DNA of 64,000 nt from Riptortus pedestris (Eukaryota > Arthropoda > Insecta > Hemiptera > Alydidae), in contig CM032230.1 in assembly GCA_019009955.1 (NCBI GenBank), forward strand, positions 122,805,001 through 122,869,000. Reading direction: 5' to 3'. Below are positions 8,626-56,010 of this stretch, piece after piece (the first letter of the stretch is position 1; every line of letters starts with the position of its first letter). The notes below the pieces were generated by a model that saw only the letters and a list, made by a program, of their open reading frames with translations, was not told the DNA's origin and did no database searches. The position numbers were made by a program, and so were the translations under genes.

Positions 8626-8784
8626 AATTCATCCCACTTTTAAAAAATATATTTGTTTTATAATGACCAAAGTATTAACACCAATGTACTCAACAATAAA
8701 ACATTATGTAGGCCACCCAAATAAAAGACGATTATTAAATTATAATTAAAAGAAAATCACTTTATTATTTAAAATAGAGTAGAT

Positions 8785-8916
8785 TATTTATTAACGTCCA
8801 CGTTTTGCTACTATGGCTAATTAGGACGGTTAATCCACAAGTTACCATCCTTTTCTAGCCAGGGTGGGACTAAGGATTTATTTAGCGATTCCGTCACTAA
8901 AATAACACTTCTAGAA
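8785..8916 (-). mobile_element. SINE 3' part
   Basis: TTATTTATTAACGTCCACG, GGTTAATCCACAAGTTACC, CTAGCCAGGGTGGGACT, CCGTCACTAAAATAA; the tRNA head is missing. Confidence 0.7.
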
Positions 8917-13106: not shown

Positions 13107-13675
13107 TTCTAGCCACTTTAGATACTCTATCCTCCGATTCCAGATTCCCAGTTATCCTTCATCCTCCCTCAGATACTCCATTCTCTGATTCCGGATTCCC
13201 AGTAACCATATACCCCCCCCCAGAAGGATCTATCGTCTATAGGATATCCTCCGATTCTGGATTCCCAGTCACCCTAAATTCCCCTTAGATACTCCATCCT
13301 CCGATTCCGGATTCCCAGTCACCCTACATCCTCCGTTAGATACTTCATCCTCCGATTCCGGATTCCCAGTCACCCTAAATTCCCCTTAGATACTCCATCC
13401 TCCGATTCCGAATTCCCAGTCACTCTACATCCTCCGTTAGATACTTCATCCTCCGATTCCGGATTCCCAGTCACCCTAGATCCTCCCTCAGATAATCCAT
13501 CCTCCGATTCCGGATTCCCAGTCATCCTACATCCTCGCTCAGATACTCCATCCTCCGATTCCGGATTCCCAGTCATCCTACATCCTCGCTCAAATACTCC
13601 ATCCTCCGATTCCGGATTCCCAGTCACCCTAGATCTTCTCAGATAATCCATCCTCCGATTCAGGATTTCAGCCAC
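13107..13675. repeat. 51-bp minisatellite, about 12 units
   Basis: Tandem units of 49-51 bp with the core CCGATTCCGGATTCCCAGTC and a variable second half (ACATCCTCCGT, AAATTCCCCTT, AGATCCTCCCTC types). Outer units are more diverged than inner ones. Units at 13267-13367 and 13368-13468 repeat as a two-unit block. The 134-codon open frame on the minus strand (17-residue repeat with TGNPESEDG) follows from the period being a multiple of three; I see no start context or homolog to call it a gene. Confidence 0.93.
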
Positions 13676-15336: not shown

Positions 15337-15406
<70 letters not shown>

Positions 15407-15532
15407 TTTTGAACGGACCTCATTTTCGTCATCTACTAGGTAGGATCGATAGACATTTAAAAAAAAATTTCGTAAATTCCGTCATGAGTACAACCTCTAA
15501 AGCTGATTTCCCTTGAGGGAAATCTGCTAAAA
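15337..15532 (-). mobile_element. HLE left-half fragment with (TA)n
   Basis: A long (TA)n tract (15337-15403) followed by AGTTTTGAACGGACCTC, TTTTCGTCATCTACTAGGTA, and the left terminus TTCCCTTGAGGGAAATCTGC. It abuts the zinc-finger end of a LINE remnant on its left. Confidence 0.75.
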
Positions 15533-18080: not shown

Positions 18081-18223
18081 GTCAGGCCGATTGGACTAGT
18101 CAAGATGGATTCAGGGAGGATAAAAGGGATAATTCCGTTAAAATCTTAAAAGCAGAATTTTTCGCGATTACAATACTTCCTTGATGGCGTCATTGTCTCA
18201 CGTACTGATATTTGTGCGCGTTT

Positions 18224-18344
18224 TTAGCAGATTTCCCTTTAAGGAAATCAGTTAGTCAGGTCGTACTCATGACGCAAATTTCGAAAAATTCTTCAAATAT
18301 CCATCAATCCTACCCAGGAGATGATGGAAATGAGGCCCCCTCAA

Positions 18345-18394
<50 letters not shown>

Positions 18395-19009
18395 CTTAAC
18401 GCCTTGGCGATCACAATTTTTGCTTGATCATTACCAATTTTAATATTTAAACATTATACAAAAGAAAAGATCAATCAAGACTGTTATATAATCTGCCGAA
18501 TTTTTATTCGAATCTTAACTATTGTTTTTAACAGATCTTTGCCAGACGAGATACATGCAAATACTTTGTGTTAAGATGACATCAGTTCATATTTTACCTT
18601 CTTAACTGAAAAATGTTTATTTATTCTATACCCTACTCGACATTTAAGCGTTTCACTCGCACTGAAGAGCACATCCATTAATGGCTGAAATCGGAATGGT
18701 GGGGGGGGGGCCTTAGAAGGAGGGTTAATTCGAAAACCAAAATATCTCCATTATGGAGTAGGGTCGAAAAATGTACTAGGACAAATCTTTTAAAACTAAT
18801 GCTGTTCTGAAATTTTTGTTCTATATATTTATTAGTAACTCAAGCAAGTTATTCCTACTTTCATGTTTTCAGTCTTCGGTAAATCCCCACTTCTACTCAC
18901 CGGAGTTTTATTTACAAATAGAGAATATGTTGTGAGTTGATTTCAGTAGTGTGACGTGCCGGCAAGTGGGAAATCGGCTTAGTTTACGCAGCCGTTGCGT
19001 GGCGGACTT
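18224..19009 (+). mobile_element. HLE element, full length (786 bp)
   Basis: Left end TTAGCAGATTTCCC, (TA)n at 18349-18388, AACGCCTTGGCGATC, then the second-module block (TAACAGATCTTTGCCAGACG, GGCTGAAATCGG, a G-run, TATGGAGTAGGGTCG) and right end GGGAAATCGGCT, GCAGCCGTTGC, GGCGGACTT. It is the closest relative of the capture element at 24180-25112. Confidence 0.83.
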
Positions 19010-20114
19010 TTTTCACCTCGGACTCACGGGTAAGTCCCAACTTGTTGACTTGTGATTAATAGGAAACCTTAAGGTGAATAAGCAGTGCTTATCCGGTGAC
19101 AATGTGTGGATCAGTGACTAAGCATGTCCTTCTGGAGTTGTTCTATCAGCTGATGTTTATATTTAACAATAGCAAAAAACAAAGAAACTTTATGTGGTAT
19201 GCCACAAAAAATAAATAATAATAAATGAGATATTATATGTAATATCTCATTTATTATTTAATTTATCCTTTTCCTTTAAAAATTTTCCCCAGCAAATGAC
19301 GTAAGTTGCAGGCGCAATCATCTCAATAGGTCTTGGATTGCACAATGCAACTAAATGCATAGACCAGACCCCTGACTAACATTGTAGAATGTTTTTGGAA
19401 TCTGATTCACCCGCTACACCCATGCCAAGTCCGCCATGAACCAAATTGCTGTGTGGGTTATTTATACTTGTTGTATGTTGATTTGACTTTCTTTTTTTCT
19501 TACGTCAGCGTTTGTTTTCTACAAGGTAGTGAGTGCCAAACAATGAGAATAATATAAACAAAATTGTTAATACATAAATAGATCGTTTAATAACATTGTT
19601 GGGAGTCTTTTAGGGTCCAAATGATTTTATATCTTCTCTACGGTCAAATAGTGAGTATTAAATCCAATGATTAACCATAAAATTATTTTTTAAAGTTAGG
19701 TTCAAATGTTCACCTATGAACAAAATCTTTAAATAAATTTTCCATGGACTTAAATTTTAAAAATGCCACAAAAGTCATGAAATTTGATCTATAGCGAAGC
19801 ATCGAAATAACGCATTTAAGTTTTATATTTCATCAGGAAATCTAGATAAAAGTTCTGGGAGTGTTGATTGTTAAGTGGAAGTTTATCTTCAAGAGGCTGT
19901 AAATATAGTCAACACTTCATAAATTTTAGTTTTAATTATGCAGAGTACTGTTGAAGCATCTTCAGTGCTGTGCTTGCCGCTAAAATGGAATGTTACGGTA
20001 GCGTATCTGACTCCAGATCAGAAATTACGCCGGGGTCACCAATTTAGCGTTCTTTTGTTCTGTTAGTAAATAAAAATACTCAAAACACAACACTGTTTTT
20101 ATTTAATTGGAATT
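19010..20114. other. Unassigned spacer with a hairpin and a tRNA pseudogene
   Basis: Contains a 19-bp perfect hairpin (19217-19258) and the tRNA-Trp retropseudogene. No gene is seen. Confidence 0.5.
19987..20041 (+). pseudogene. tRNA-Trp(CCA) retropseudogene with encoded 3' CCA
   Basis: GGTAGCGTATCTGACTCC, then AGATCAGAA, is the D-arm end and anticodon arm (anticodon CCA) of animal tRNA-Trp, and ACGCCGGGGTCA is its 3' end. About 17 nt covering the variable loop and 5' side of the T arm are missing, and the 5' acceptor strand does not pair. The bases after the discriminator A are CCA, which nuclear tRNA genes do not encode. Confidence 0.75.
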
Positions 20115-23076: not shown

Positions 23077-23704
23077 GAATTATATTATTATTAACGGTCT
23101 GAATTGAAGGGGCAAACGATTTTCCAGATGAACTTTTCCTCCTATCGAATCGTGACCTTAACGAAACCACAATGTTTCCTAGCCTTTCAAGAACTTTCTC
23201 ATTTCAGCCTACATTCTAGAAGTTACAGTAAATGATTGGATTTAGCATGTTCTTTGTATACAAGGATTCCAAAATTATTTTGTTGACGGCCATTAAACTC
23301 GCTAAAAAGCCTCCCCCCCCCAAAAAAAAGAAATATGCCGATTAATTAGTTCTGGCAATTTAGTAAATACTGTTAAAAAAACTTTATAGCAATAATTTGT
23401 TTAACTTCTGAGAACCCAAATGCCCTCGGAAGAAACCATTTTTAATTTTGTAGCTGATCTCTAAATAATTGAAGAAAAACTATTTCATGTAGATTAGGTC
23501 CAATTGACAGTGGAACGTTTAAACCAATACGCATACACAATAATACTACCAACTAATGAAAAAGACTTATTAATAAACTAAAAAAAAAATGGCTTCAATC
23601 ACTTCAACCTATTTTAATTTAAAATATAAAGGTTAACATTATATCTGTACTCTTATAAATAGATTGCAATAATTTTTTTAACATTTGATGATTAATTTTA
23701 TTTT

Positions 23705-23924
23705 GGCGGGTCAGGTTAGCCATTGAGTATGGGGTTGGTCTAAATCTCACTTGGTAAACCTGGAGTCGTAAGTTCGGTTCTCACCTGAGCAGTAGGAATT
23801 TATTTATTACGAACTCATTATATAAAATACTTAGTCCCACCCTGGCAAGAAAAGGGCGACGTCCTGTAAATAACTCGTTCCGAGTAGCCTTAGTAGCATA
23901 AAGTGGACATAAATAAATATCATT
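23705..23924 (+). mobile_element. tRNA-derived SINE
   Basis: Head GGCGGGTCAGGTTAGCC, B box AAGTTCGGTTCTCACC, body CTTAGTCCCACCCTGGC, tail AGTGGACATAAATAAATA. Confidence 0.82.
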
Positions 23925-24318
23925 ACATACAGATACTCACGCTCAAACTCGATCTACTATCACTCTCTCTTCAGCCGGCACCCGATTAACCGTTATTGAA
24001 GTAATTTGTATGACATAATCAGCCATGGGACACCATATGGGGAATCATAGCGGGAGTCACGAACCGTGCAAGCAGTGCCATCAAACCTTGGCATGATAGT
24101 TCAACGACATGATAATATCTTAACATGATGGTAGCCTCCTTCATACCTATTTCATTTCTTCACCATGTTTTCGTGTCGTGCGTTGAGCCACTCAGGAAGA
24201 TCAAGTATTCAGGTTGTACGCAGTGCACGATTTTATAATCATTTTCTCAAGTGCCCATCGATTCTATCTATTAGACGATTAAAATAATGTTTGGTCAAAT
24301 TGATTATGTGCGCGCGCA

Positions 24319-24535
24319 TACAGTTGAGCATTCTTCAGCAGCTCTTTTAAACTGAAAAACAAAAAAAAGTGATATGAATTGCTTTGTTCTATTAAAATAA
24401 AAAATGGTACAAAATAGCTTCAGAAGCAATTATAGAACACTTTCTAATGTCTTTCTTAGTGAGATTCACAATCTACCTCTTTGACAAATCTGATTTCCTC
24501 TTCCATTATCAATACGCACACGAATACCCCCCCCC
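24319..24535 (-). pseudogene. Inverted duplicate of glycogen synthase intron 3 end and exon 4 start
   Basis: Read on the minus strand this stretch matches about 43988-44209 with roughly six substitutions and two small indels over about 200 bp. It includes the GTGTGCGTATTGATAATGG start, the pyrimidine tract, the CAG acceptor and the first ~33 nt of exon 4 ([11 protein letters not shown]), which are identical. It breaks off inside exon 4 after CTCAACTGTA, and at the other end inside the microsatellite. It cannot make enzyme; it is a fragment. Confidence 0.9.
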
Positions 24536-24538
24536 CCC

Positions 24539-24611
<73 letters not shown>
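24527..24611 (+). repeat. Compound microsatellite C14 (CA)15 (TA)20
   Basis: Perfect compound repeat at the junction between the captured gene fragment and the right part of the HLE element. The C-run and CA part correspond to the G-run and (TG)n of glycogen synthase intron 3; the TA part corresponds to the usual internal tract of HLE elements. Confidence 0.95.
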
Positions 24612-24616
<5 letters not shown>

Positions 24617-25574
24617 CCTGTATATGGGCGTTAATATTTTTTTTCAACAGATCTCTTAACAGACTAGACGAGATACATGCAAACACGTTATGTGATGTCG
24701 TCACCAATTAAGACTTTTTTTCTTGATTGGAAAGCTTTTATTTGATATAACCGTTTTATTCAACACTTACCGTCATATTCGTTAATGCCTGTTTCGTGGG
24801 GGGGGGGGGGGTTAGAGGGTAAGGTAATTCCAAAATACAAAATATCTCTATTATTATGAATCGAATTAAAAAATGCTATAAAACAATTGTTATTGACGCT
24901 CTACAATGGTTGTCATATTAATTTTTTTTTGTAACTCAAATATTAAATAGTTATTCCTAATTTCTTCTTTTCAGCATTCAGTTAACCCTTACTTCCACTC
25001 ATGGGATTTTTAGATAGTAATAGAGAATATAAGCCAAGATGATATTAATAGTTTGTCATACCATCACATGGGAAATCTGCTTCCTTTACGCAGCCTCTCA
25101 GTGTCGGACTCTTTTTTTTTTTTTTTTTAATTCTTATCGTTTCTCCGGGATAAAAGAGAACCAACGGCGCTAAAGTCTTGCAAAGATGCAAGACATTTGC
25201 TACAATCTCAAATTATTTTTCGCGATGAATCGATATTTAGACGTTTCATGCAAACAAAAGATAAAGTTCCTCAATGACTGAAATCGGAAGAAGAGGTTTT
25301 CTTTTAGTCATTGAAAAAATAAGTAGAATGTCCATATAATGAATAAAATAAAATGTATCTCTGTAGCATTGAAAATGCCCAGGAGTGCTTATAGATTGTT
25401 GAAAAAATAAATATAGTTATTGTGCAACCTGGAGATCTTTTAATATCCATTATTTAAAATTTTTGGAATTTATTTACATTTTCATTAGAGATGATGGGTA
25501 TGACATAGATGAAGGTGGGCCTCTAATTAAGAAGAACAGTTCTTTCTTCGGAGAACTTATTTACATTTTTCAGA

Positions 25575-26417: not shown

Positions 26418-26529
26418 TGAAATTATCAACAAGATAGGTTATATAAATAACGGATATATTACAAATTTTTAGGTTTACCTCCTCCACTACCTACTATAGT
26501 GTTTAGTTTTGTGAAACGGTTGTTATTAT

Positions 26530-26726
26530 AATTATTATTTATTAACGTCCACTTTTTTGCAACTCAGGCTAATTGGGACGGGTTATCTACAGGTGACCCT
26601 TTTCTAGCCAGGGTGGGACTTAGGATGTTATTTAATGAATTTCGTCACTAAATAATTTCCTATGCCCAGGCAAGAATCGAACTCGCCACTCTAGGATTAC
26701 CATGTGAAATTAAAGGCAACGCCTTA
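26530..26726 (-). mobile_element. tRNA-derived SINE, 5'-truncated
   Basis: Tail (TTATTATTTATTAACGTCCA), CTAATTGGGACGGGTTATC, CTAGCCAGGGTGGGACT, B-box complement AGAATCGAACTCGCC. Stops before the A-box end of the tRNA head. Confidence 0.82.
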
Positions 26727-26764
26727 ATAAAAATAATTGGTTTAATAAAAATAATCAAGATTAA

Positions 26765-27080
26765 AAAGTAAAAACATATTTGCGTGTATCTCACTTGGTA
26801 AAAATTTAATCAACAAAATATTTTGTATTTAAGCTTGGGGGATTAGCCATGTGACCTAAGGCGTTGGTGCAATCTCATATGCAAGGCCTGGGTAGTGGCG
26901 AGTTATATTCCCGCCTGGGCAAAAGGAATTTATTTAGTGGAGAACTCAATAAAATCCTTAGTCTTGCTCTAGTTAGAAAAGGGTGGTAACCTGTAGATAG
27001 TCCTTCTCAATTAACCGAGTAACACAAAGCGGACGTAAATAAATAACATTTAAGCTTTGAATACAATGTTTCGAAAATTC
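26765..27080 (-). mobile_element. Degraded HLE fragment split by a SINE
   Basis: GCGTGTATCTCACTTGG and AAATATTTTGTATTTAAGCT on one side, TGAATACAATG on the other. They rejoin across the SINE (26837-27047) once one copy of its ATTTAAGCTT duplication is removed. Compare TTGGTATTTAAACTTTGAAT in the copy at 35830-36396. Confidence 0.6.
26837..27047 (+). mobile_element. tRNA-derived SINE with 10-bp target duplication
   Basis: tRNA-like head GGGGATTAGCCATGTGACC with a B-box-like GAGTTATATTCCC, body TAGTCTTGCTCTAG, GGTGGTAACCTGTAG, and tail GGACGTAAATAAATAAC. It is flanked by direct repeats ATTTAAGCTT at 26827-26836 and 27048-27057, lying inside an HLE fragment. The target duplication shows retrotransposition. 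Confidence 0.85.
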
Positions 27081-29628: not shown

Positions 29629-29686
<58 letters not shown>

Positions 29687-29932
29687 TGAGTGTGTGTGTG
29701 TGAGTATAAAACTCTTAAAGAATGGAAACAAGGCTTATCTTTTTGTTCTGTTAAAAGGTTTGTGTGATTTTCTATTTAAATTCGGCGGGGATACGTTTCT
29801 TTTACGTTTTAGGCCATTTTAAGAACCATGGCATTGAAAATCTCGTCCGTCTGTTTGTTACACAATCACTCAACTGCTGGGATTCGTCCAATAGATATTC
29901 CACGCTTCATGCTCAAAACTATAAGTTTTTAT
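28221..29932. other. Unassigned GC-richer segment, then AT-rich spacer
   Basis: 28230-28810 is markedly richer in GC than its surroundings, starts near GAGTATAAAAGCTGCCCC and has broken frames; it looks like an unclassified repeat or decayed gene. 28860-29530 is very AT-rich; a (TA)n tract follows. Confidence 0.45.
29635..29682. repeat. (TA)n microsatellite
   Basis: TA run preceded by TGTGTG and followed by CATATATGAGTGTGTGTG; flanking sequence does not match the HLE family. Confidence 0.95.
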
Positions 29933-30161
29933 GGGGCTCAGGTTAGCCATGTTAGCTAAAGCGTTGCCTTCAATCTCAAATGGTAAACCTAGAGTGGCGA
30001 GTTCGATTCTAGCCCTGGGCAATAGGAATATATTTAGTGGCGGAATTCTTTAAATAAAATCCTGAGTCACCCTGGCTAGAAAAGGGTGGTAACCTGCAGA
30101 TAGCCCGTCCCTATTAGCCTTAGTTGCAAAATGTGGACGTTAATAAATAATAATAATAATA
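29933..30161 (+). mobile_element. tRNA-derived SINE, full length
   Basis: Best copy to read the family from: head GGGGCTCAGGTTAGCCATG with A-box-like region, B box GAGTTCGATTCTAGCC, GGCTAGAAAAGGGTGGTAAC, CTATTAGCCTTAGTTGC, tail ACGTTAATAAATAATAATAA. About 230 bp; Pol III transcription is expected from the tRNA head. Confidence 0.85.
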
Positions 30162-30439: not shown

Positions 30440-30549
30440 CTATATTTATAATTTTGAACGTATCTCATTTTCGTCAACCCCTAGGTAGGATCAATGGACA
30501 TTTAAAGACTTTTACGAAAATCATGAGTACAATGTGGGAAATCTGCTAG
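30440..30549 (-). mobile_element. HLE left-end fragment
   Basis: TTTTGAACGTATCTCATTTT, CGTCAACCCCTAGGTAGG, AATGGACATTTAAAGAC, ending TGTGGGAAATCTGCTAG. The inner palindrome of the left terminus has been lost. Confidence 0.65.
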
Positions 30550-31130
30550 AAACATTGTTCAGCATTCCCGCTACAAGAATGCAGGGAATGGTAGGAGCTG
30601 GCCATTCAACCTCCCGCCGAACTGTGTGTCAGACCTTGGCCAGTCATGTGTTGGGCCTAAATATTTTCAATCTCCATATTTCACTAAGCGGTCGTAATAC
30701 ACAGTTGCAAAATTCCCAAATCTAACATTCATCTATATAAATGAAACTGCATAGGTACTTGTACTCAGGATTTATAAATTTTCAATGAGGTAAAATGAAT
30801 GAATATTAAATTAGACCCAATGACATGGAAGTCCACGTTTTGAGATAAATGGTTGTTCTTAAGGAGTAACTCTCCTTCTAACAGTGGAATTAAAAAAAAA
30901 TTAAAAAGAAAACAAACATATTAATTTTTTTAATATTTTTGGACAAAGAAATAGTTGGTAAAAAAGAACTTTAAACTGTCTTAGACATGTTTAAATTAAA
31001 TTGTACGAATATAAAAATGTATGATCATATTGGAAACAAATATTCTTCTGTAGACTTATAAAGTAAATAGTCTTGCATAACATTTAATATTTTAGGAACC
31101 TTTTGGAGACACTGGCTAACGTACTCAAAT
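30550..31130. other. Unassigned spacer
   Basis: A short GC-richer patch (30555-30660) then AT-rich DNA; nothing recognised. Confidence 0.45.
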
Positions 31131-31255
31131 TTCAGCAGATTTCCCTCGAGGGAAACCAGCTATTAAGGCTGTACTCCTGACAAAATTTATGAAACATTTC
31201 TTCAAATGTCCATCGATTCTACCTAGGTGATGGCGACAATGAGGCGTTCAATTTT
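31131..31255 (+). mobile_element. HLE left-end fragment
   Basis: CAGCAGATTTCCCTCGAGGG (palindromic left terminus), CCATCGATTCTACCTAGGTG, GCGACAATGAGGCGTTCAA; cut off near a minus-strand SINE. Confidence 0.7.
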
Positions 31256-31267
31256 TAAATTAAATTT

Positions 31268-31488
31268 AAATTATTTATTAACGCACACTTTTTGCCACTA
31301 ACGCTAATTGGGACGGGTTATCTACAGGTTACGACACTTTTCTAGCCAGGGTGGGACTAAAGATTTTATTAAATGAATTACGTCACTAAATAAATTTCTT
31401 TTTCCAGGCGGGAATTGAACTCGCCACTCTAGGTTTACCATGTGAGATTAAAGGCAGCGCTTTAACTCACATGGCTAATCTGAGCCCC
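31268..31488 (-). mobile_element. tRNA-derived SINE, full length
   Basis: Tail TTATTTATTAACGCACAC, GACGGGTTATCTACAGG, B-box complement GGAATTGAACTCGCC, and head complement CACATGGCTAATCTGAGCCC. It abuts the HLE fragment ending near 31255. Confidence 0.85.
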
Positions 31489-32330
31489 ATTCATTTTTTT
31501 TTTGTTTGTACGAAACTAAAGTTGTCCATTCTTAAAAATTGTTGGTACAATGGACCCTCAAAATAAATACTGTTTTTCAATCAGTTCTTAGACGCTTTGC
31601 GGGGAGTAAAATAGACATTTTATGATCCATTAAAACAAAGGCCCGCGGACCATAAATGCACAGTGCATATCAGTTTCTAGAAAAGGTACTCTTTGATAGG
31701 CTAACACCATTTATGGTGTAATTATCTTTCCTGCAAATAATCTATCAAAACAAGCAATCCTCGACTATAATAATTACAACCCTTATTTTAATGTTATAGT
31801 ATATAATTATATTAATTCTCCTAAAAGTTTTGGACAAATGATTTTTGTCAAGAGACTCTTAATCAAATATGAATATCCATTCCATTCTCAAGAACGTAAA
31901 TATTATTAATATTGTAATATCAAGATCAGTTATATGCTTTCAATCCTTCAGTAAGTAATGTTTAATATTCTCTTTCTTCAATTTTCTAATCCAGAGATTT
32001 TTTTGCATGATGATCTGAAAATAAATGGCATTGCGCATTATTTATAGATGTTATCCTGATAAACAACAAGCAGGTCCTTCTGTATCTATGATAGGTAGAA
32101 GTTTACGATTTTTATATTCACCCTTCTCCCCCCCCCTCTTTAGGCGATTTCGATCAAAAGGGCGTATGGTCAACAAGATGGTACAAGGTTTATATATAAC
32201 ATATAAATAGAATATAACATTTCTAAATTCTAATACTAGTCGGTTTTCAGATACGCAAGATGCGTACATACATAAGAACTGACATTGTCCTGGAACTACT
32301 CAAGATGGGTTTGGTGCGAGTCAAAATAGA
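31489..32330. other. Unassigned spacer
   Basis: AT-rich; a short family B fragment at about 32115-32165 is the only recognised item. Confidence 0.45.
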
Positions 32331-34284: not shown

Positions 34285-34448
34285 GGGGGCTGAGTTGAAG
34301 CGTTGACCTTAATCTCACATGACGAACCTCTAGTGACGGAATTCATTAAATAATATCCTTAGTCCCACCCTGGCAGAAAAGGATGGTAACCTGTAGATAA
34401 CCCGTCCCAATTAGCCTTAGTTGTGAAAAGTTGACGTCAATAAATCAT
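34285..34448 (+). mobile_element. tRNA-derived SINE with internal deletion
   Basis: GGGGGCTGAGTTGAAGCG, CTCTAGTGACGG (the B box region is deleted), TCCCACCCTGGCAG, CCGTCCCAATTAGCC, tail GACGTCAATAAATC. Confidence 0.78.
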
Positions 34449-35829
34449 TTAATTTAAATATTCTAAGAATTAGAGTTAATGAATAATAAAAACGTAAGAT
34501 ATGAATAATCAAACTGTTTATAAAATTCTTTTAGAGCTTCTTTATTTAATGTTTAAGGTGATAAAAAGATGAATTGCTCCTACTGTTTGGTTTTCTGTGT
34601 AATATTATTTAGGGAACATGTTTAACTGTATACTTGAGCCATAAATAAAGGCAGAATGTGTGGGAATCTATAAAGATGAAGCTCATTAAAACAGGATAAG
34701 ATAATTGCTATAATTATAGCTAATTAGTAATTTCCTTATTAGAACTGCAATTCTTCACAAGTGATACTGGTAAAAGACTCTAAATAATTATAATAGAAAA
34801 TATAGAATAGCTGTTTACTACTCACTCGCTTCAATTCCTAAGATTTAAAATTAAAATCAAAATTAATTAAATTGTAAAACAGCATCGGATTTATCCAAAA
34901 TGATGAAATTAAATTTAAATTTGTTTGCAGTCTTTTTTTTTAATGTGAAAGAGGATGGACTAGCGATATTCACTGAAACGTATTCTAGAAAACAAAAAAT
35001 TATTATTTTTTTTAAAAAAATTCTAGTTATCATTAACATCCACATTACGAGATTATGGGCCATTTGGATGAAGGTATAAAATATTTCACTTTTTCTTAAG
35101 AAAGAAAAATATTTCGCTATCTACTTGTTAGAAAAATAATACCTAATATATTCATTAAATAAATGTTAATTTATAATTATTTTTAGTTTATATGTGAATC
35201 AACTGTAGAGAATCCATTCTGAACAGTCAATACATTTGAAATAAAATAATGTATTTTAATTATTTTGTATTCAAAAAAAATATTTCAATTTATTATTGCA
35301 CTTAATATTTCATAATATCGGTATTTCGGTGTTCGCAACTCATTTGCTATGATTAATAGGAGTTTTTGTGTAATGTTTTCTCAATAGTCCCTTTTCAAAA
35401 CAACTTGTTTTTTAAAAACCACGGAAGTTTGGAAATGTTAAATCATGTATATCTAAGTTATTGTGAAAGCATAAATAAGTAACAGGATTTTTTAATCAAA
35501 ATATTTATTAGAATATTTGTTTTGACAAACTTTAATTCTCAGTCCTGCGTAATATCGTATCCCTACTTATGAGAATTTCTCCTAAGATGCTATTATATTT
35601 CAAAATTTAAGTTTTGAAGTTGGGTCCCATCATGTAGTAATGTCATGTCATGCTGTGAGTGGTTACACTCACTATGGAATATTCATAGACATAAAAAAAT
35701 ATTAAAAATGAATCATAAACATTATGGATAAATTAAAATGAATTCTGTAAAATTTCACTTTGAAAAACTATGTAGTTTATGTTTTGACTTAAAAAAAAAA
35801 AAACCTTCACTCCTGTCAGGAGTCATTCA
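34449..35829. other. AT-rich spacer
   Basis: No recognisable feature. Confidence 0.5.
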
Positions 35830-38589: not shown

Positions 38590-38719
38590 ATGTCGATCAG
38601 TAGGAAGTTTTTTAGAGTCGACAGTGGACATGATTTGTGTGCTGCATTGGACAGAGGTGTTAAAGCTTCTGAAAGCAACAGGTGGTGCTTTGAAGTGGCC
38701 TGGGAAGTAGCTAACAAAG
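38590..38719 (+). CDS. GlyS: Glycogen synthase coding exon 1 (residues 1-43 plus 1 nt)
   Basis: Encodes the N-terminal regulatory leader ([13 protein letters not shown]) and the first strand of the GT-B fold, ending EVAWEVANK. The donor is AAAG|GTAATA, and the split valine codon 44 is completed in exon 2. A branch-point-like TGCTAAC, a long pyrimidine tract and an AG at 38586-38587 directly precede the ATG. The exon may therefore begin at 38588, with most of the 5' UTR in an unseen upstream exon. Confidence 0.93.
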
Positions 38720-41513
38720 GTAATAAATAGCTTTTGATAACAATAACAAATAGTTTCTATTTTAATAAAAATTTTATAAATAGGAATTATAATTGCATTA
38801 TCTGGCTGCTGAAATAATTTTAATGGGTGTAATAATTAAAAATTTTATTTTCAGACTTAGTGTGCTACAACATTGGCATTAAGAATCCACATGTTAATAA
38901 AACTATTTCAGCAATTTCTATTAAAGTCGTGTAGTGAACATGTTAAACTGACAAATGTACTATAGAATTGAATCCAGCTTATTGTCCATTTTTAAATCAG
39001 TGGTGAAATATTTTTTTTTTCTTTTTCTGTTATAAGATTATTGATTTTTTTTTCATATTGTGTGTTGAGAATATATTCCTTATCCCCCCCCCCCAAATCT
39101 ATAATAATTTATATTAACTTTTTTAATCAGATTGACTATTCTACCCCTCCCCCCTCCTGATATTCATATTAAAATTGCTATATGTGACATTATCTCTCCT
39201 GAATTTATTCTGTTTTTTGGAGGTACCTGGGCTCATTGAAATTATTATTGCTGTCAAAGTGAGCTATCGCCTTCTTCGTATTGTCTAGGGCTGTCAATCA
39301 TAAGTTTTGTGATTAATAAATGGCTAAATTTGTATTTATGGTTTAAAGATCTTTATTCATGGCATGCCATGATGATTGTTTCTTAAAAAGTGTAATTTCA
39401 TTGACATTTGGTCAGGGAACTACAAAAAGAGGCATTTTTCTATATGGTAATTTTAAAAATATGAGTTGTCTGGTTTTAATGTTAAAAAATGAAAGGGAGT
39501 GGCTATTTCTCTTCTCCCAATTTCTTTGATAGGAATAATTTTCTGAATAACTCAATAGAATACTATCATAAGTAAAATAACATGATTGGAGTAAGTGAGT
39601 CAAATTATGTCAATGCTTCACCATGTACTGTTTCCCCCCTCGCTTTACATTCCACAGACAACAAGGGGGAGAAAACAGTGCTTATTACACAAAAAAATTG
39701 TTTTTTATTCTGCAAAGGGGGCCTCAGATTAGCCATGTGAGATAAGGTGTGTGTTTTAATCTCATATGGTAAGCCTAGCGTTATGGGTTTGATTCCCACC
39801 TAGGCAGTACAAATTTATCAAGTTACGAACTCATTAAATAAAATCCTTAGTTCCACCCTTGGTTGAAAAGAGTGTAGATAACCCATCTCAATTAGCCATA
39901 GTGGATGTTAATAAATAACATAACTTATTCAACAGATGATCATTACATAGAAGTGTGAAAGTGTGCCCTTCCTTTATTTTCCTTTCTCACATGTCTTACC
40001 TTGTTCTATTGCTGACTTTAGTTCTGGACTCTCCCCTTGTGCCAAGCAACTTTTCTGTCTCCGCTAAAATCTATGGTGAAAAGGAATATACTTTTGTCTC
40101 CAATGTTGTCTTTAGCTGCGGGCATCTTAAATGTTTGCAGATTGCCTAGCATTGTTTATCCATATTCTTTTGAGGTCCTAATTGTTAGGACACAGTGTTC
40201 TCATGATCTTGGTCCTCTTAGACGTACTTAAAACTATAGTTTGAAACATGTTCTCAATGGTTGACTCCTCTTATTTGATATGCTTTCTATTAGAAGTGGG
40301 CTCCTTCTTTCTGTTTCTTAGCATGACATCGCATTGGTGTAATTATAAGTAAGCAGGCGAGATAATTAATTCTTTCTCTTGTTCCTTTGCATCTTCACAT
40401 GGTGCTTTCATTCGGATTAATGATTGGCTATTAGAATCTTCCATTCAATGTGAATTTGCAGATAAGTCATTCATATTTTCCAAGGGAGGTCATATTTGCT
40501 TCATTTTATCAAATTTCCTAAATAGCCACAACCATTATTGCATCAGCAAAGTTCTAATGATCTGGTTACGATTGTTATAGTTTGATAGATAAACCAACAT
40601 TTAATCAAAATCCTTTATTCTTCTTTCTGTTGTGTACTTATGAAGAATTGGTGTTGGTTGGGATCCCCTTTCCCTCTTTATTCATATTTTCTTCTTTGTT
40701 TATATTTTTAACTATCACTATTAATGTAGTTCTATCATAGTTGAGCTTTCCAGTAGAGTATATGCTGCTTGCATTTCTATTGAGGCGAATATGCCTATTC
40801 TCCATAGTGAGGAGGTATAATTTTCATATCACTGGAGAGGAAAGTTGAAAGTAGTATTCTCATAGTTTCTTTTTGATTTAAAAATATTATTATCCCATTT
40901 CTATACTCAGCCAAACTGAACCTGAAACTGTATGTTTCATCTTGTAAACTGTTCATATGTGATGTTGCAATTATATAAATCGATTTCTTCATATATTTAA
41001 TTACATTTCTTTGAAGTATGAAATTGTACTTAATTTCAGTTGGTGGTATTTACACTGTGATTCGATCTAAGGCCTGGATAACTACTGAAGAGTTGGGAGA
41101 TCAGTTTTGTTTGATTGGCCCTTACAAGGAGCAAAGTGCCAGAACTGAAGTTGAAGAAGGGGAGTTTCCTCTAGGCTCTCCTCTTCAGATTGCTGTTCAA
41201 AGGACTAGAGATCTTGGATTCCAGGTATTGGATGTTAATACAGCTATTAACTTGCTTGCTTTGTGTTTTTATTAATTTGCGCAGGAGAAAGAATTTAATT
41301 ACCGCACGGTACTCGAGTTTAAACATTGTAAAAATGGGGAGTTTCCTTTAAGGCTGGACACTGACTGACAAGGGTGAGGAAGTGCGGGCGATGGGTATGG
41401 AGTGACCAGGCATGGACCTTCATAGGCGTGCAGGTCCCGGCGCGTTTGAAGGAGAGCAAGCAGAACAGACCGGAAACTTATGGACCTTACTACATATATT
41501 TATATAGATATAT

Positions 41514-41566
<53 letters not shown>

Positions 41567-43851
41567 TATTCACTAGTGGACAGAAGTGTGACTGTATTTG
41601 TACTTGTGTGAATATGATTTTGAATAAATAAGCAGAAGGCATATTGTAATTATGAATATGTTTATAATTATTAATAAGAATAAAATCATATCCACATATT
41701 GAATGTAATTTTTGTCTTACTCACACCCATAAATATGATTTTGTCTTATTCACAAACATGAAATGATTGTTTGTTCTGTATCCACCATTTTTTCTTGATT
41801 TTCATCCACAATTACCTTTTTTAATGATTTCCAAGACAGGCTTGGTTCCAAATTTTTAAAGATAAATTATTTTCTAAGGCATTTTATTGTCTTTTTTACC
41901 TAAATATTCTAAATGTGCCATTATTGGTAAATTGGGTTCTGTTGATAGACCAATATCCTTCGTCTGATTAAATGATTTTATATGGGAGATAAAAGGATCA
42001 ATCAATGCAAACTCCAAATAAGAAGTCTATATTTATTTTCCCAAAGACCAAAAACGCAAATCATGACCTTCATAGTACAATTTCCAATTAGTGATTTCAC
42101 AAAACGTGTACTAGCTGTAGTTATTTCATCTCTAGATGCTCAGCTTCAATTGATATGAAATTTATATCAGGTATTCAGATCATCAGTAGGTACAATAACA
42201 GAGAGTAAGACTTTGGAAATTAAGAACTTTTTTTTCCTCAATTTAATTTGAGGTACCCACATATTATATATTTAAAAAAAAAGTGCATGCTATATAGTAA
42301 TTATTCTTGCTTCTTTAGGTTCTATGCCATCTGTTTCCAGGTACACTGTGGAACTTGGCTTGTTGAAGGGAACCCACAAGTTATACTCTTTGACATTGGC
42401 TCAGCATCTTGGAAGTTAGATGATTTCAAACAAGAATTATGGGCAAACACTAATGTAGGAGTACCACATCATGATATTGAATCGAATGATGCTGTTCTTC
42501 TCGGATATATGGTCGCCACCTTTTTCGGCGAGGTAAAATTGTACTTATTGGTGTTTATTATTTAAAGTCAACTTATTTATTTGTTTTAAACTATTTTCCC
42601 CAAAATAACTAATATTTAAGAAAAAAAAAAAAAAAAAAAAAAAAAAGCTGCTGTCTCATTTTAGAAGTTATTTTATGTGATGCTATTTGAAAAACTGGTT
42701 TTCATCAATTAAACACTTCACTGATTTAAGAATCACTTTTCCTGTACGTTTTAACAGAATTTGAAGTTTCTAATGAAAGCCGAACTGCAGTATTCCATTC
42801 TTTATCGGGTTTCCAAAATGTATTAGCCAACTGTAAAAAATTCATAAAGGTTTTAAATATTCATACTTCATGGAAATAAATAAACAACACTAATCAGTCA
42901 AAATATAAATCTCCATTCTCCTTACCTTTATCTTCCCTAGAAAATTTAATACAAAGTTCTCCTGTGCCACTCCTGTGTTTTGTGTCTACTCGAAGAAAAA
43001 TTCATATCTTTAAAACTAAACCTTTTCACTCTCATCTTTTAAATATATCTTTTGATCTGATAATCTTCTGAGTTTTGAATAATTATAGATACATTGTAAT
43101 TACTTCTAAATAAGCTGCAGTATTTCCTAAATTGTTTTCTAAAAAAAAAAAAAAAAATTTCTGAAATTCGCCTGGAAGAATATACTCTGTTGGTAGCTTG
43201 CTTACTAAAAGTCTACAATGAAAACGTGTTGCTCATTTCTAGGGCATTAAAAGTTTCTCTAGAGAGGCTTGTATCACATTTGAAGTGCTCCCTCTTCTTC
43301 AGCCAAAGCGGAACCTAGTTTAAATAATCACTTAATATCATTCTTGCTATTATGAGTCATCCAAGTGCTTTGCTTCACTATTGTATCCAACATTAACTTG
43401 TAATGTAAATACTTCATTTTTGGATAGTAAAAAATGTAGACACGATGTTATTAAATTTTACAATGCTATTTAACTTGACTTACAGCCTGGCTCATAAATC
43501 TTCATAGAAATCAGAAATATTATTAATAAAATTTATTAGAGATAACAATCTTCCAGTAAAACTTCCGACCAGCAGTTATTTGTGCATCAAAATAAGAGAA
43601 AAGCGTATTCTTAGAGCTATTAGCAAGTCTTGTTGTCAATGGCCATATTAAAAGAGATGATTAGTTGTAAAGTAATAGCATGTTATTCTCTAACTGGTAT
43701 GGAAAAAAGAAAATATTAAACAAAACATAGCCAAAGCTCTAAGCAAGGAAACAATTTAACCAGACTGTCTTTCTACTGTTGTATTGTTTGCATGTTGTAT
43801 ACATAATTTTTTATGGTTTTATGCCTTTCTATGTTTATATATTTCTAAGGG

Positions 43852-43888
<37 letters not shown>

Positions 43889-46800
43889 TGCGCATGTACG
43901 TGTTTGTGTGTGTGTGCGCATGTTTCTGTGTGTGTGTGCGTGCATGCGTGTGTGTGTGTGCGTGCGTGCATTTGTTTGTGTGTGTGTGTGGGGGGGGGTA
44001 TGCGTGTGCGTATTGATAATGGAGGAGGAAATCAGATTTGTCAAAGAGGTAGTGAGATTGTGAATCTCACTAAAAAAGACTTTAGAAAGTGTTCTATAAT
44101 TGCTTCTGAAGCTATTTTGTACCATTTTTTATTTTAATAGAACAAAGCAATTCATATCACATTTTTTTGTTTACAGTTTAAAAGAGCTGCTGAAGAATGC
44201 TCAACTGTACAACCAAAAATTCTGGTACATTTTCATGAATGGCAAGCAGGAATTGGCCTAATAGCAATAAAAACTAGAAAAATTGAAGTAGCTACCATTT
44301 TTACGACTCATGCAACTCTACTTGGCCGATATTTATGTGCTGGGAAGACAGATTTTTATAACAATTTACCTTATGTATGTTAGCATCTTTAACTTTTGAA
44401 GATTTTAGCATTAGTGTATTTTTATTTATTTTAGGTGAATTTATTTACCTGGTTAATTTAATTACAGTTAAGGTTTGTAACAGGAAATATTTATTTGTTG
44501 TTTATTGTCATATTGTGAATAATAGAGTTGTTAAAAATATCTTTTTGTAGATGTGACCACTTGTTCTAACAAAAAAAGCGAAGTAGTTTATATATATTTT
44601 TTAAACAAGATTATTAATAGTTATAAAGAATCTGTGGTGCTAAAATGAACTGCTTATTTGAGTACTTGCAAATGAACATAATCTGTTTATAATAATGAAA
44701 ATAATTGGTATTAGGGGGAGTTTGAAATTGCTGTCCCTCCTCAATTCCTTCTTAAGTAATAAAATTCGATTTGTTTGTTTATTATTATTTACATCCAATT
44801 AATGCTACTATGGTTAATCGGGACGGGTTATCTACAGGTTACCACTCTTTTCTAACTAGGGTGAGCCCAAGGAGTTTATTTAATGAGTCCGTCACTAAAT
44901 AAATTTCTACTGCCCAGGGCAGGAATCGAACCCGCCACTCTAGGTCTACCACGTGAGATTAAGACCAACGCACTAACGCGCACGGCCAACCTGAACCCCC
45001 AAAAATTTGAATTAATTAAAATAATTAAATTTTTTAATTTATTCCAACGGAGCTTAAAGCTTATATAAGTACAAAATAAGCATTATACTTTTACATAATG
45101 TTTGAAAATGCATTTTAGTTTTTGGCTTTGATATCAATATGCTATAAAGGTTTAATTATTTAAACAAACTAAATTGGAGGCCTCAAGCCAAAACATATAT
45201 TAATAATGGTTATAAAAATGTTTATTTTTTAAAATAAAATATGAAGGGTCTGATAATAAAATATTGTATTTCTTTGTTGTAAAACCCATTATTTATTTAA
45301 CATATATGAACATTATAGTAAATAGTGTTGTTATTAAATGGCCTCAGACATTTTATTCATGTTTTTGGACTAAAGATTTATTTCTTCCAATTGAAGAACT
45401 GTTTCTATCACTTAAATGCCTAATTTAGTCAGAATATTTTTCTTTGTAAATCAAAATAAATGTTCCTAAAATTCTTCATTGTTGCTGGCTTGGTGGTTAT
45501 TCAACATTTCTCTGACTGTTAGACTGTTTATTAAGATTGATTTTTCAGAAATGAAGAATTTCACACTAACGGCAAGGCATTAGCTCTGTGAGTTGTGCGA
45601 ATAATGAAATTTCCGCTGTACTTATTTAAATCAAAGTATTCAGGTTTTAAAGAAATATCTCATTCAAATATGATTTTTTTTATTTTTTAAATTGCTTGTT
45701 TATTATTGGATATCTTATAAATTTTGAGTTTCTCTAACTATAATCTTTTTATTTTATGAAAAGTAGTATAAACTAATTCAGTTTTTTCTTCTCCTAAGGT
45801 ATAATTTTAATGAATTTACTTATGTCCTTTCAGTATGGGAGTGATCATCTTATTTACAAATCCTTCGTAAGTCTTGAATAATCATCAATTTATTTAAAAA
45901 GGTTTTTTTGTTATAAAATTCTTTTGTTTTGAAACTAATTTGAGTGATTTGGCTTTGATTTTTTTCTAGTCCGATAATAATTATTGTTGACTCCTAACCA
46001 TTATGGGTCAAGTAAATCTATTTAATACCTTACTAGCTAATAAGTAAGTTTTACATTAACGTTTTATTTACACCCAAAAAGAAAAAAAAAAACAAATGTT
46101 TTTATTAGCTAATATTGCTAACAGTTTGCCATTACTATATTTACAGTAAGTTGAATTATTAAAAAGAAAATTGAACCCAAGTATTTTTTTTTCTACAGAG
46201 TGGACATTTTTTTTGTTCATCTTGTTTAAGAGTTGTTTTACATTATTTTTCAGTTTAATGTTGATGAAGAAGCTGGTAAAAGACAAATTTATCATAGATA
46301 CTGCATTGAAAGAGCTGCTACACATCTAGCAAATATAGTTACCACTGTGTCTGAAGTTACTGGCCTTGAGGTAAAATTTCAATTGATTGTGTTAAAATGC
46401 CTAATAATTTTTTTAGTAATATTTTCATGTTTTGCCATTAAATCCATTTACGTAGTTTGATATCTTCATTTGAATTCTTATAATTGATTACCTCAAATAA
46501 TTGATTTTTCCACACTTATTAAATCTCTGAATATAGTTTTTGCTCAATTACCTGTTTTGAGTTATAATAGTTACTTGAATATGCTATCATAACATTTCTC
46601 CTTTTTAGGTTGAACATCTTCTTAAGAAAAAACCTGATGTAATTACTCCCAATGGCCTTAATGTTATCAAATTTTCTGCTCTCCATGAGTTTCAAAATTT
46701 GCATGCTATTGCAAAAGAAAAAATTAATGAATTTGTTCGAGGCCACTTTTATGGGTATGTGTTAATATCATGTTTTGTAACTTTTTAATTGTCTTTCTTC

Positions 46801-49800: not shown

Positions 49801-52800
49801 GAAAGTTTGGTATTTTTACATTTTTTAGTATTTAGTATATTTATATTGGACTTATTTTTATTTAATTTAGCCTTTTTAAAATATGATCTTTAGCCAAATT
49901 AATGGCTGCTACAATGGAAATATTAAAGTGTAACATGGAAATAAATGTTTCCACAATATTATTAATGAAAAAGGGGCTTATTTTTTGCAGATTTCCCTTA
50001 GGGAGCTCACATTTTCCCATACAAAGCTCTAGCAAGTAATTTGCTATACATACATACACAGTTAAAAATCTTTGGTTTACCTTTCTGTCACTGTGAAGTA
50101 AAAAACGGCTTTTCTTTGAATGTTTATTGCATTGAATCTTTGCATTTAAGACTCAGATCTAATATTTTAATACTTAACTGCAGAAATGATATAATAAAAC
50201 AAAACAAATAACAACAAAAAGCTTTCTTGCACAGCAAAGAAAGCAATGTAAACAATCAGTTGACAATCACACTCATTACATGGCATGGAGAGAGACAGGT
50301 CTTAGAAGTACTGTAAAATATTATTTGGAGAGATTGCAGTTTGTAATATTGGAAAAATAACATTGTTCTATATTGGTCGAGTTCATCTGTATTGAATTAT
50401 ACACTGAGCTCATTTCCACCACCTTTGAGGTAGGTTGAGTGGGCATTCGAAGAATAATTTCTCGTAATGAAAGTCTACTTAAAATATTAATAAGGAAATT
50501 ACTACAATTATTTTATGTGTGAGTATATGTTATTATTTAAGATTATCAAAATGTGCATACATTCTCCATATTATATTACATTTTATTTATTGTCTCCAAA
50601 AGATTTTTTCAAAACTAAAAATTTTCATTTAGGATCTTCATTTACTGTGTTACTGTTTCTAGGAGTCACATTCACAAACTACAGTTGTTGCTTTCCTCAT
50701 TTTCCCTGCCAAAACAAATAATTTTAATGTCGAGAGTTTGAGAGGACATGCTGTTACAAAAAGTTTAAGGGATACTCTCAATGAAATCCAAACTAAAATA
50801 GGAAAAAGGCTTTATGAAATTTGTTTAAGGTTTGTCTTTCATTTTTAAAGTTTTTTTTTGTTTGTTTTTGTTTTGTTACATGTGACTCTAATTAAGTATG
50901 TTTTATAAAGTGGTCGGATGCCTGATGAAAAAGAATTATTAACGAAAGAGGATAAGATGAAAATGAAAAGATGTTTGTTTGCCCTTCAGCGCTATGGTCT
51001 CCCTCCAGTTACAACTCACAATGTTGTTGATGACTGGAATGATCCTGTACTTAATGGCGTTCGAAGATGTCAACTTTTCAATACAGTTAATGATAGAGTC
51101 AAAGTAAGAAACATTTTTTGTTTTATTATATTTACATTAAACAATCTTTCTAATAATACCTAAAATAAGTCAATGAGATTATCAAGATTTACTTGATAAA
51201 ATTATGTTGTTAAAACTGGATAAAATTTAAAAAAACAAAAAAAAAATACATAGAATGTTTGATATGGTTCATTTGGGACTGTTTCCTCTAGAATTCCAAA
51301 TTAAATCCAAATTTGTGTGTTTTAGAATTCATGAACTCTTGTTAAATGGAAAAAAATAATATTATAAGTTATTACTATTTCAAAATTTTTATAATTGATA
51401 ATTTTTCTTTATTAATTTTTAGGTAGTATTCCATCCAGAGTTTTTAAGTTCAACGAATCCACTGTTTTCTCTTGATTACGAAGAGTTTGTTAGAGGGTGT
51501 CACTTGGGGGTATTCCCGAGCTACTACGAACCTTGGGGGTATACACCTGCTGAATGCACTGTTATGGGAATTCCATCTATTACAACTAATTTATCAGGTC
51601 AGTTTGTTTTCTAATTTCATCTATTGTCTTATTAGCAGATTTCACATAGATGTAATCCGTAATTGAGGTTTTACTCATGACTCAATTTTCAATTTTTGGG
51701 TATCTTCGAATACCCATTCTTTGTAGGAGATGACAAAAATGAGATTAATTGTTGAAATCGGACCAGGGCAAGGGTGGTTTAAAGGGAGGAAATAAAAAAA
51801 TCCACAATATCTCCATTATTATGTGCCAAATTAAAAACTATTATATAAACAATCTTGTTGCAAGTTTAATTCTCTATAATTGTTATCCTATACATTTTTT
51901 GAATATATTATTATTATTAAGTTATTTGAGTTTTTTTGTTTTCAGCTTTCAGTAAACAATAATAATTATTTATTAACATCCACTTCTTGCACCTAAGGCT
52001 AATTGGAATGGGTTATCAACAGGTTACCACCCTTTTCTAACCAGGGTGGGACTGAGGATTTTATTTAATGAATTCTATTAGTAAAAAATTCCTTTGCCCA
52101 GGCGGGAATCGAACTCGCCACTCTAGGTTTACCATGTGAGATTAAGGTCAAGACACGTGGCTAACCTGAGCCCCAATTACTTCTACTCATCACTCAGTGA
52201 ACAATCACTTCTACTCATCACCCATTAACAATTAGCTAATATATCATGTAATGTCTTATTCCTATCAGAAATACCAAATGTTGTTTGGAGATGCGTGCAA
52301 ATCTGATGTGTGTCATCATTAATTAAGATTTCACATTCCCAATTTGAATATGTTTATTTGCTCAATACCATATTTGATAATTAACCACAACATGTGTTAT
52401 GGTGTTTATTCATCACTAAAGATCATAATCATTAATGGCGTTAATCGTACCTGGGGGAGAGGGTGTTTAGAGGGGACAATTAGAAAGTCCAAAATGACTC
52501 AGTTACTATGAGTCTGACCAAAACATGTTATAGAACTAATATTGTTAAACATTTAATGCTTTACAATTGTCATTCTATAAATGTTTTTTAGGAAATAAAT
52601 TTTTTCCATTTCTACTTCTAAAACTTTAACCTTTAAAGACTAAACATGTCTTGTTCAGCTTATATTTCAATTGCTGATTGCATAGGCCTCTTACTATGGA
52701 AGAAATAGAGTACTGACAGTACTGAACTGATATGAGGTTTTTTCATGCGTGTGGGTAATCTGCTTAGTTTACACAGTTTTTGGGCCAATGTATTGGAACA

Positions 52801-54742: not shown

Positions 54743-55957
54743 TGTCTGTTAACACTCTAGCGGTTGCAATTTTTGTTTAATCGTTACCAAACTCGGTATT
54801 TAATCGTTCTATGTAAAAAGAAAGATGAAGTTCGTTAATGGCTGAAATCGGACCAGGGGGGATTTTTAAAAATTCGAAATATCTCTGTTACTGTAAGTCG
54901 GATTGAAAAATTGTATAGAACCAATCTTATTACTAATTAAATTTACTATAAATGATGCTATATAAATTTATTCTTTATCTTGAATATTAACCAAGATATT
55001 TGCATTTTTATTAAGCGTGTGTGTAGCTATTGTCGGAAGTTTCCGAAATAGTTTGGCCATTTCCGTAACTGTTCGGCACTCGTGTAACCTAACCTTTCTC
55101 TGTTCTTGTCTTCTAACCTTTTACTTTGTGAGATATATGCAAATACGTTCTGTTGATGCCCCCCTCCATATTCAAGATGGTGTTGTGTTACCGGTATGTA
55201 AATTTCTCTATTGAAAAACTTTACGTGGGAAATCTGCTTAATTTACGGAGCCCCTGCTTGACAGACTTTTTTTGACTGCAGATGGTTAGTTATCCTGAGA
55301 TACTTTATACAATACTATTCACATTACCAGAAACCAATCAATCTTCTTAGATTAATATCTCTTATGAGGAAAGAATTGAGTGTGATTCCTCTGGGCCGAT
55401 ATGTTAAAAGTAATGATATTTGTCAAACATAAGTTTTACGTAACTAAATTGACAAAATTGTAATCTAATTGTATTGAATAACAATTAATATTATTTTTCA
55501 ATATTTTTTCTTTCTAGTATTACAGAGAAGCGAGACAAAAAGCACTTCAGCAAGTCTATGACGGTATTCCATCTTTGGAAGAGGAAGATAAGATGCGAGG
55601 CTTCAAATACCCACGACCTTATTCTGAACCTCCATCTCCTTCAGCAAACACTCCTTATCACTCAGATGATGAAGTAGATGAAGAGAAAGAGGTAAGTAAT
55701 ATTTTTTTTTTTTTGTTGACTCTTTAGTCCCATTAGATATTATTATAATTTACTTATTATACTATCAAATTCACCATGGAAGGCAAAAAGTTGGAAAGTC
55801 AATAAATGTGAGAAGCATACTCACATCTGCGCCTAATTGCCTTGCTGTTTATTATAATTCTTGATAAATATGTTATTTAGATTACTTTTCTCAGTTTTCT
55901 TTCCCCAAAATTCTGTTATATGGATATTTAAAATAAGGTCCGTTCAAAATTCTATAT

Positions 55958-56010
<53 letters not shown>

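Follow-up and report, generated by a model that had tools for sequence, protein, structure and literature searches.

Several described systems bear on how a piece of a gene can come to lie inside a transposable element. Helitrons in insects acquire host fragments with junction overlaps of 2-13 bp, and under the filler-DNA model a break within the element is filled with host DNA (excerpts of PMC6544945). HINE/DINE-1 elements are characterized, in the excerpted descriptions (PMC4067079, PMC7492417), by a pair of subTIRs, a 5' palindrome, an internal microsatellite, core units, a 3' hairpin and T-rich ends. Class 2 templated sequence insertions are short templated patches with a short overlap at the insertion site and with neither target-site duplication nor poly(A); experimental templated insertions measured 73-414 bp, with a median of 191, and patches derived from RNA have been proposed in human cells (excerpts of PMC5110952).

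Here, we describe a locus from the bug Riptortus pedestris that shares features with all of these. It lies in a stretch of 64,000 nucleotides (contig CM032230.1, positions 122,805,001 to 122,869,000), hereafter the window, to which all coordinates refer. A fragment of a glycogen synthase gene interrupts a HINE copy at its internal microsatellite. We consider it probable that the microsatellite of this fossil element broke and that repair closed the gap with a templated patch whose source lies 19.4 kb away, for which known processes suffice. The patch has the short template, short site overlap and lack of target-site duplication and poly(A) of the class 2 insertions, and its length supports templated insertion because it falls inside the experimental range. 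It differs from the class 2 insertions, as far as the excerpts describe them, in having a donor at a distance of no more than 19.4 kb and in inverse orientation, a dinucleotide tract at one edge and an insect host. With the filler-DNA model it shares the break within an element, host DNA as filler and short junction overlaps; it departs from the excerpted account of that model in that the element had probably decayed already and the chimera has left no trace of movement within the window. The features are collected in Table 1.

Table 1. Positions of the insert, its host element, its donor and neighbouring repeats in the window
Feature	Position	Strand	Evidence or remark
Left (5') arm of the apparently decayed HINE copy	24189..24298	+	nhmmer E=3.6e-12; 44/125 off consensus; subTIR 5/12
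Microsatellite-like tract TATGTGCGCGCGCA, position where other copies start (TA)n	24299..24318	+	alignment with 11 copies; junction
Insert, probably templated: inverse copy of the end of synthase (GYS) intron 3 with its acceptor and the adjoining 33 nt of exon 4	24319..24526	-	donor 44209-43999
C15 + (CA)15 tract, longer than the donor's matching G9(TG)7 edge	24527..24570	-	
(TA)21, presumed internal microsatellite of the element	24571..24612	+	
Right (3') part of the HINE copy	24613..25115	+	3' subTIR 12/12; hairpin 4/6 pairs; first core unit start not found
Donor: intron 3 end with (TG)n, CAG acceptor, first 33 nt of glycogen synthase exon 4	43951..44209	+	
Glycogen synthase exon 4, source gene	44177..44374	+	PDB chain matches; exons 1-6 at 38590-46754
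SINE-like repeat copies	26534-26727, 29927-30153, 31266-31490, 44779-45005, 51959-52175, 39718-39902, 23691-23919, 34331-34460, 8783-8913		

A preliminary description of the window, made from the letters alone, had reported that 24319-24535 is the inverse complement of about 43988-44209 with few differences, and alignment bears this out. When 24180-25112 was compared with the window by BLASTN, window 24319-24570 aligned with the inverse complement of 44209-43951 at 91.9% identity over 260 columns (E=4e-104). Outside the simple repeats (24319-24526 against 44209-43999), 6 of 207 aligned bases differ, a distance of 2.9% that is the sum over two lineages; four of the differences are transversions and two are transitions, and there are two indels, one of 1 nt and one of 4 nt. 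The 33 exon bases are identical in the two copies, and the base preceding CAG at the acceptor differs. The unique part 24319-24526, searched alone, matched itself and the donor; the remaining 10 of the 12 best listed matches within the window were 14-23 nt long with E >= 0.036, the best of them 20 nt long with E=0.036. The chimera of element and synthase fragment thus occupies one place within the window, and its insert is inverted relative to the donor.

The donor is, by all appearances, a working gene. Compared with PDB, 44177-44374 matched glycogen synthase chains (best E=1.6e-21). Exons 1-6 join in frame, with AG before exons 2-6 and GT after all six. Among the best 120 of 7993 protein matches, the named top relatives are mostly true bugs, among them Nezara viridula (81% identity), Rhodnius prolixus and Lygus hesperus (both 74-75%); the second-ranked match, from a moth, reaches 65% over 54% of the query. 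The synthase gene had earlier been named as the source of the fragment, and it is, because the 33 bases are coding exon and the exon they belong to matches known glycogen synthase structures. The opposite direction, in which the gene would have received the sequence from the element, is rejected, as these bases are conserved coding sequence.

The host, judged by its sequence features, is a non-autonomous Helentron (HINE) copy whose two arms stand in their usual order and whose internal microsatellite is the site of the insert. The left arm (24189-24298) matches the family's left-arm profile at model positions 15-124 (nhmmer E=3.6e-12), and the right arm (24670-25115) matches the same family in the same orientation (E=8e-69). 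The insert is flanked by the TATGTGCGCGCGCA tract and (TA)21; the array of another copy, at 55930-56012, likewise starts with TATATGTG (array 55925-56012). These matches uphold three further proposals of the preliminary description, namely a rolling-circle-like element (it is of the Helitron class), flanks that are the left and right parts of one element in normal order, and an insert located at the internal microsatellite.

The HINE family has many copies in the window, where profile matches at E<1e-5 cover 13.6% of the sequence. Its consensus runs from TTTT through AGCAGATTTCCC, the palindrome GATTTCCCTTAAGGGAAATC, (TA)n and core units of ~300 bp to GGGAAATCTGCT and the hairpin ACGCAGCCCCTGCGT. 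The features of HINE membership, that is complementary subTIRs, a 3' hairpin and an internal microsatellite, are present in the family, which resembles HINE/DINE-1 in its subTIRs AGCAGATTTCCC and GGGAAATCTGCT, 5' palindrome, internal microsatellite, core units, 3' hairpin and T-rich ends (excerpts of PMC4067079, PMC7492417). The 3' subTIR GGGAAATCTGCT is kept at no fewer than 9 of 12 positions in all 14 other 3' ends; their ACGCAGCCCCTGCGT-like hairpins form between 2 and 6 of the 6 stem pairs, and nine of the 14 form 5 or more. T runs stand at most 5' ends of the copies in the window, and the 3' flanks are T-rich. The copy at 24180 differs from HINE/DINE-1 in being without the 5' subTIR and in carrying foreign DNA at its microsatellite. 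Scans of the window with Rfam at gathering thresholds and with ARAGORN gave no matches.

The insert and its host differ greatly in divergence. In the left arm of the 24180 copy, 44 of 125 bases (35%) depart from the consensus of 11 other copies, against 6 of 207 in the insert (Fisher p=2e-15); the left arms of the other copies depart by 3-26%, which makes this copy the most diverged of the 12. The 12-row alignment left out the partial matches 11343-11255 and 7569-7505 and weaker ones, and these two partial left arms were tested separately for the 5' end and the core. In a five-copy tree, the right arm lies at a distance of 0.375-0.49 from the four others, and its terminal branch of 0.23 (against 0.15-0.44 for the rest, with 0.24 for copy 18548) is about eight times the whole insert-donor distance. 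The 5' subTIR AGCAGATTTCCC, which retains at least 10 of 12 positions in 13/13 other left ends, retains 5 here, and the palindrome is matched at 10/20, against at least 17/20 in 11 of 13 others; it is also poor in copies 30549r (11/20) and 51632 (14/20). As a mobile unit, the copy therefore has no intact 5' end, and its 3' subTIR is intact (12/12), with a hairpin of 4/6 pairs inside the range of the 14 others.

To judge from these comparisons, the element long predates the insert, its arms being some eight-fold or more as diverged. Because of this difference and the loss of the 5' subTIR, the most likely course is that the insert arose in place in an element already decayed. Against this, the divergence of the right arm is ordinary for the family, the 3' subTIR is complete and the hairpin is no poorer than in other copies, so a divergent subfamily or a 5' truncation, instead of age, could account for the 5' decay and for part of the divergence of the left arm.

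At the exon end, the insert begins abruptly, with a short overlap of TA or CATA in simple sequence. Its other edge consists of C15 and (CA)15 followed by (TA)21; the C tract counts 15 bases here and 9 in the donor. CA/TG runs of at least five units occur in none of the seven other long TA arrays of HINE copies, and the donor intron has five. The C15(CA)15 tract likely derives from the donor. Compound TG/TA tracts can also arise without it: a (TA)23 outside HINE copies, at 29635-29680, has (TG)6 adjoining it (29635-29702). The tract at the left junction, TGTGCGCGCGCAT, is similar to pieces of the donor intron and too simple for assignment. For four assumed right edges, the insert edges share no word longer than 4 nt, which leaves no room for a target-site duplication of greater length, and the sequence has no A tail at the insert. 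LINE retroposition is not favoured, given the lack of both marks.

A search of the 148 nt that follow (TA)n in this copy did not find the start of the first core unit (score 22; mean of 200 shuffles 24). Of the 11 other left arms, seven have this start behind a TA/AT-rich microsatellite, as does the copy at 56007, and it is absent in the other four (15532r, 31130, 30549r and 51632) and in both partial left arms. Depending on the copy used as yardstick, 100-265 bp of element sequence are missing. Since four of the 11 other left arms are also without the core start, its absence is weak evidence for a deletion linked to the insert, and the loss may be old and unrelated to it.

The course of events that we favour would be as follows. 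A HINE would have inserted near 24.2-25.1 kb long ago and then decayed. After a long interval, its internal microsatellite would have suffered a double-strand break or fork collapse, leaving a gap that was filled, by synthesis-dependent repair or template switching, with ~220-250 nt copied from intron 3 and exon 4 of the synthase gene; the repair may also have removed ~100-265 bp of the element. As for polarity, we infer that it was the right end of the break whose TG/CA-like 3' strand invaded the (TG)n of the donor. Synthesis would then have followed the sense strand of the gene up to exon 4, before the new strand returned to the element and was joined to the left end through an overlap of 2-4 nt (TA/CATA). 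The C and CA tracts would afterwards have grown by slippage.

The preliminary description had read the locus as a recent capture by the element. Of this reading, a gene-derived insert at the microsatellite is supported, and capture by an active rolling-circle element is not. Such a capture, in which an active HINE took up the fragment as in the filler-DNA model and the chimera then transposed to this place, would agree with the gain of host fragments by insect Helitrons with 2-13 bp overlaps (excerpts of PMC6544945), with the internal position of the insert between arms in order and with the intact 3' subTIR. It needs, however, that the copy be of the insert's age or younger and that its parent had a functional 5' end, whereas divergence in the arms far exceeds that of the insert and no 5' subTIR is left; within the window, moreover, a single chimera is seen, 19.4 kb from the donor. 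Capture with transposition expects an insert at least as old as the arrival of the element, which is contrary to what the arms indicate, barring membership of the copy in a divergent subfamily that was not sampled. On the grounds of relative age and of the missing 5' end we reject it as the main reading, and we regard it as quite improbable. It is more improbable still that the fragment belongs to a dispersed repeat with another copy in intron 3: the long (TG)n there would suit a repeat, but 33 of the bases code for part of exon 4, and within the window the unique part has no more than two matching places. An assembly or haplotype artefact, for which the microsatellites at one junction might speak, we hold to be extremely improbable, as 6 base differences and 2 indels between the copies are not expected of a simple misjoin of one sequence.

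The template of the patch may have been DNA or pre-mRNA, and we lean towards DNA. Reverse transcription of synthase pre-mRNA at the break, as in a class 2 templated insertion, is unlikely in our view, but it has points in its favour: the donor is inside a gene, patches from RNA have been proposed for human cells (excerpts of PMC5110952), and the unspliced intron in the insert is permitted for a nuclear pre-mRNA. A DNA template suits better the short distance to a donor in cis and the junction that has (TG)n at its edge, although that closeness is partly an ascertainment effect because one window was read. The lack of an A tail and of a target-site duplication does not separate the two templates, since class 2 insertions are also without both.

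If a repair patch is indeed what this locus holds, it suggests that a rolling-circle element is not necessarily the captor of a gene fragment that it contains, and that the age of an insert, set against the age and state of the element's ends, offers a way to tell capture from later repair. It is a single case, modest and explicable. A wider idea, which we think rather doubtful, is that fossil HINEs with microsatellites are break-prone traps that keep gathering templated gene patches after their death; if true, some of the 'captured genes' reported in Helitron-like elements would be post-mortem repair scars and not products of transposition. The loss of the core start at the microsatellite in 4/11 other left arms would fit recurrent breakage, and other readings of it exist. 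The antisense geometry pointed out earlier holds, in that plus-strand transcription across the insert would yield RNA antisense to the synthase gene; regulation of that gene by antisense or small RNA would be a conjecture.

Some further observations concern the other repeats of the window. Among the HINE copies, 18222-19013 and 24189-25115 both have a shortened first core unit, a hint of a shared subfamily. The left arms 15338-15532, 31130-31251 and 30453-30549 stop at or near the microsatellite with no core beyond, as if broken there, and the second of these is followed, at 31254, by a SINE-like repeat. This second dispersed repeat is ~100-230 bp long, with copies 68-87% alike, and is possibly a tRNA-derived SINE; two copies carry a word that we take to be a tRNA-type B-box (39786, 44922). 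The copies at 39718 and 44779 lie within synthase introns, and the one at 51959 probably does too. Two opposed SINE-like copies form a long inverted repeat at 26529-27052. Finally, 13246-13667 is a minisatellite of ~8 copies of a 51-bp (101-bp) unit, with long open frames on both strands.
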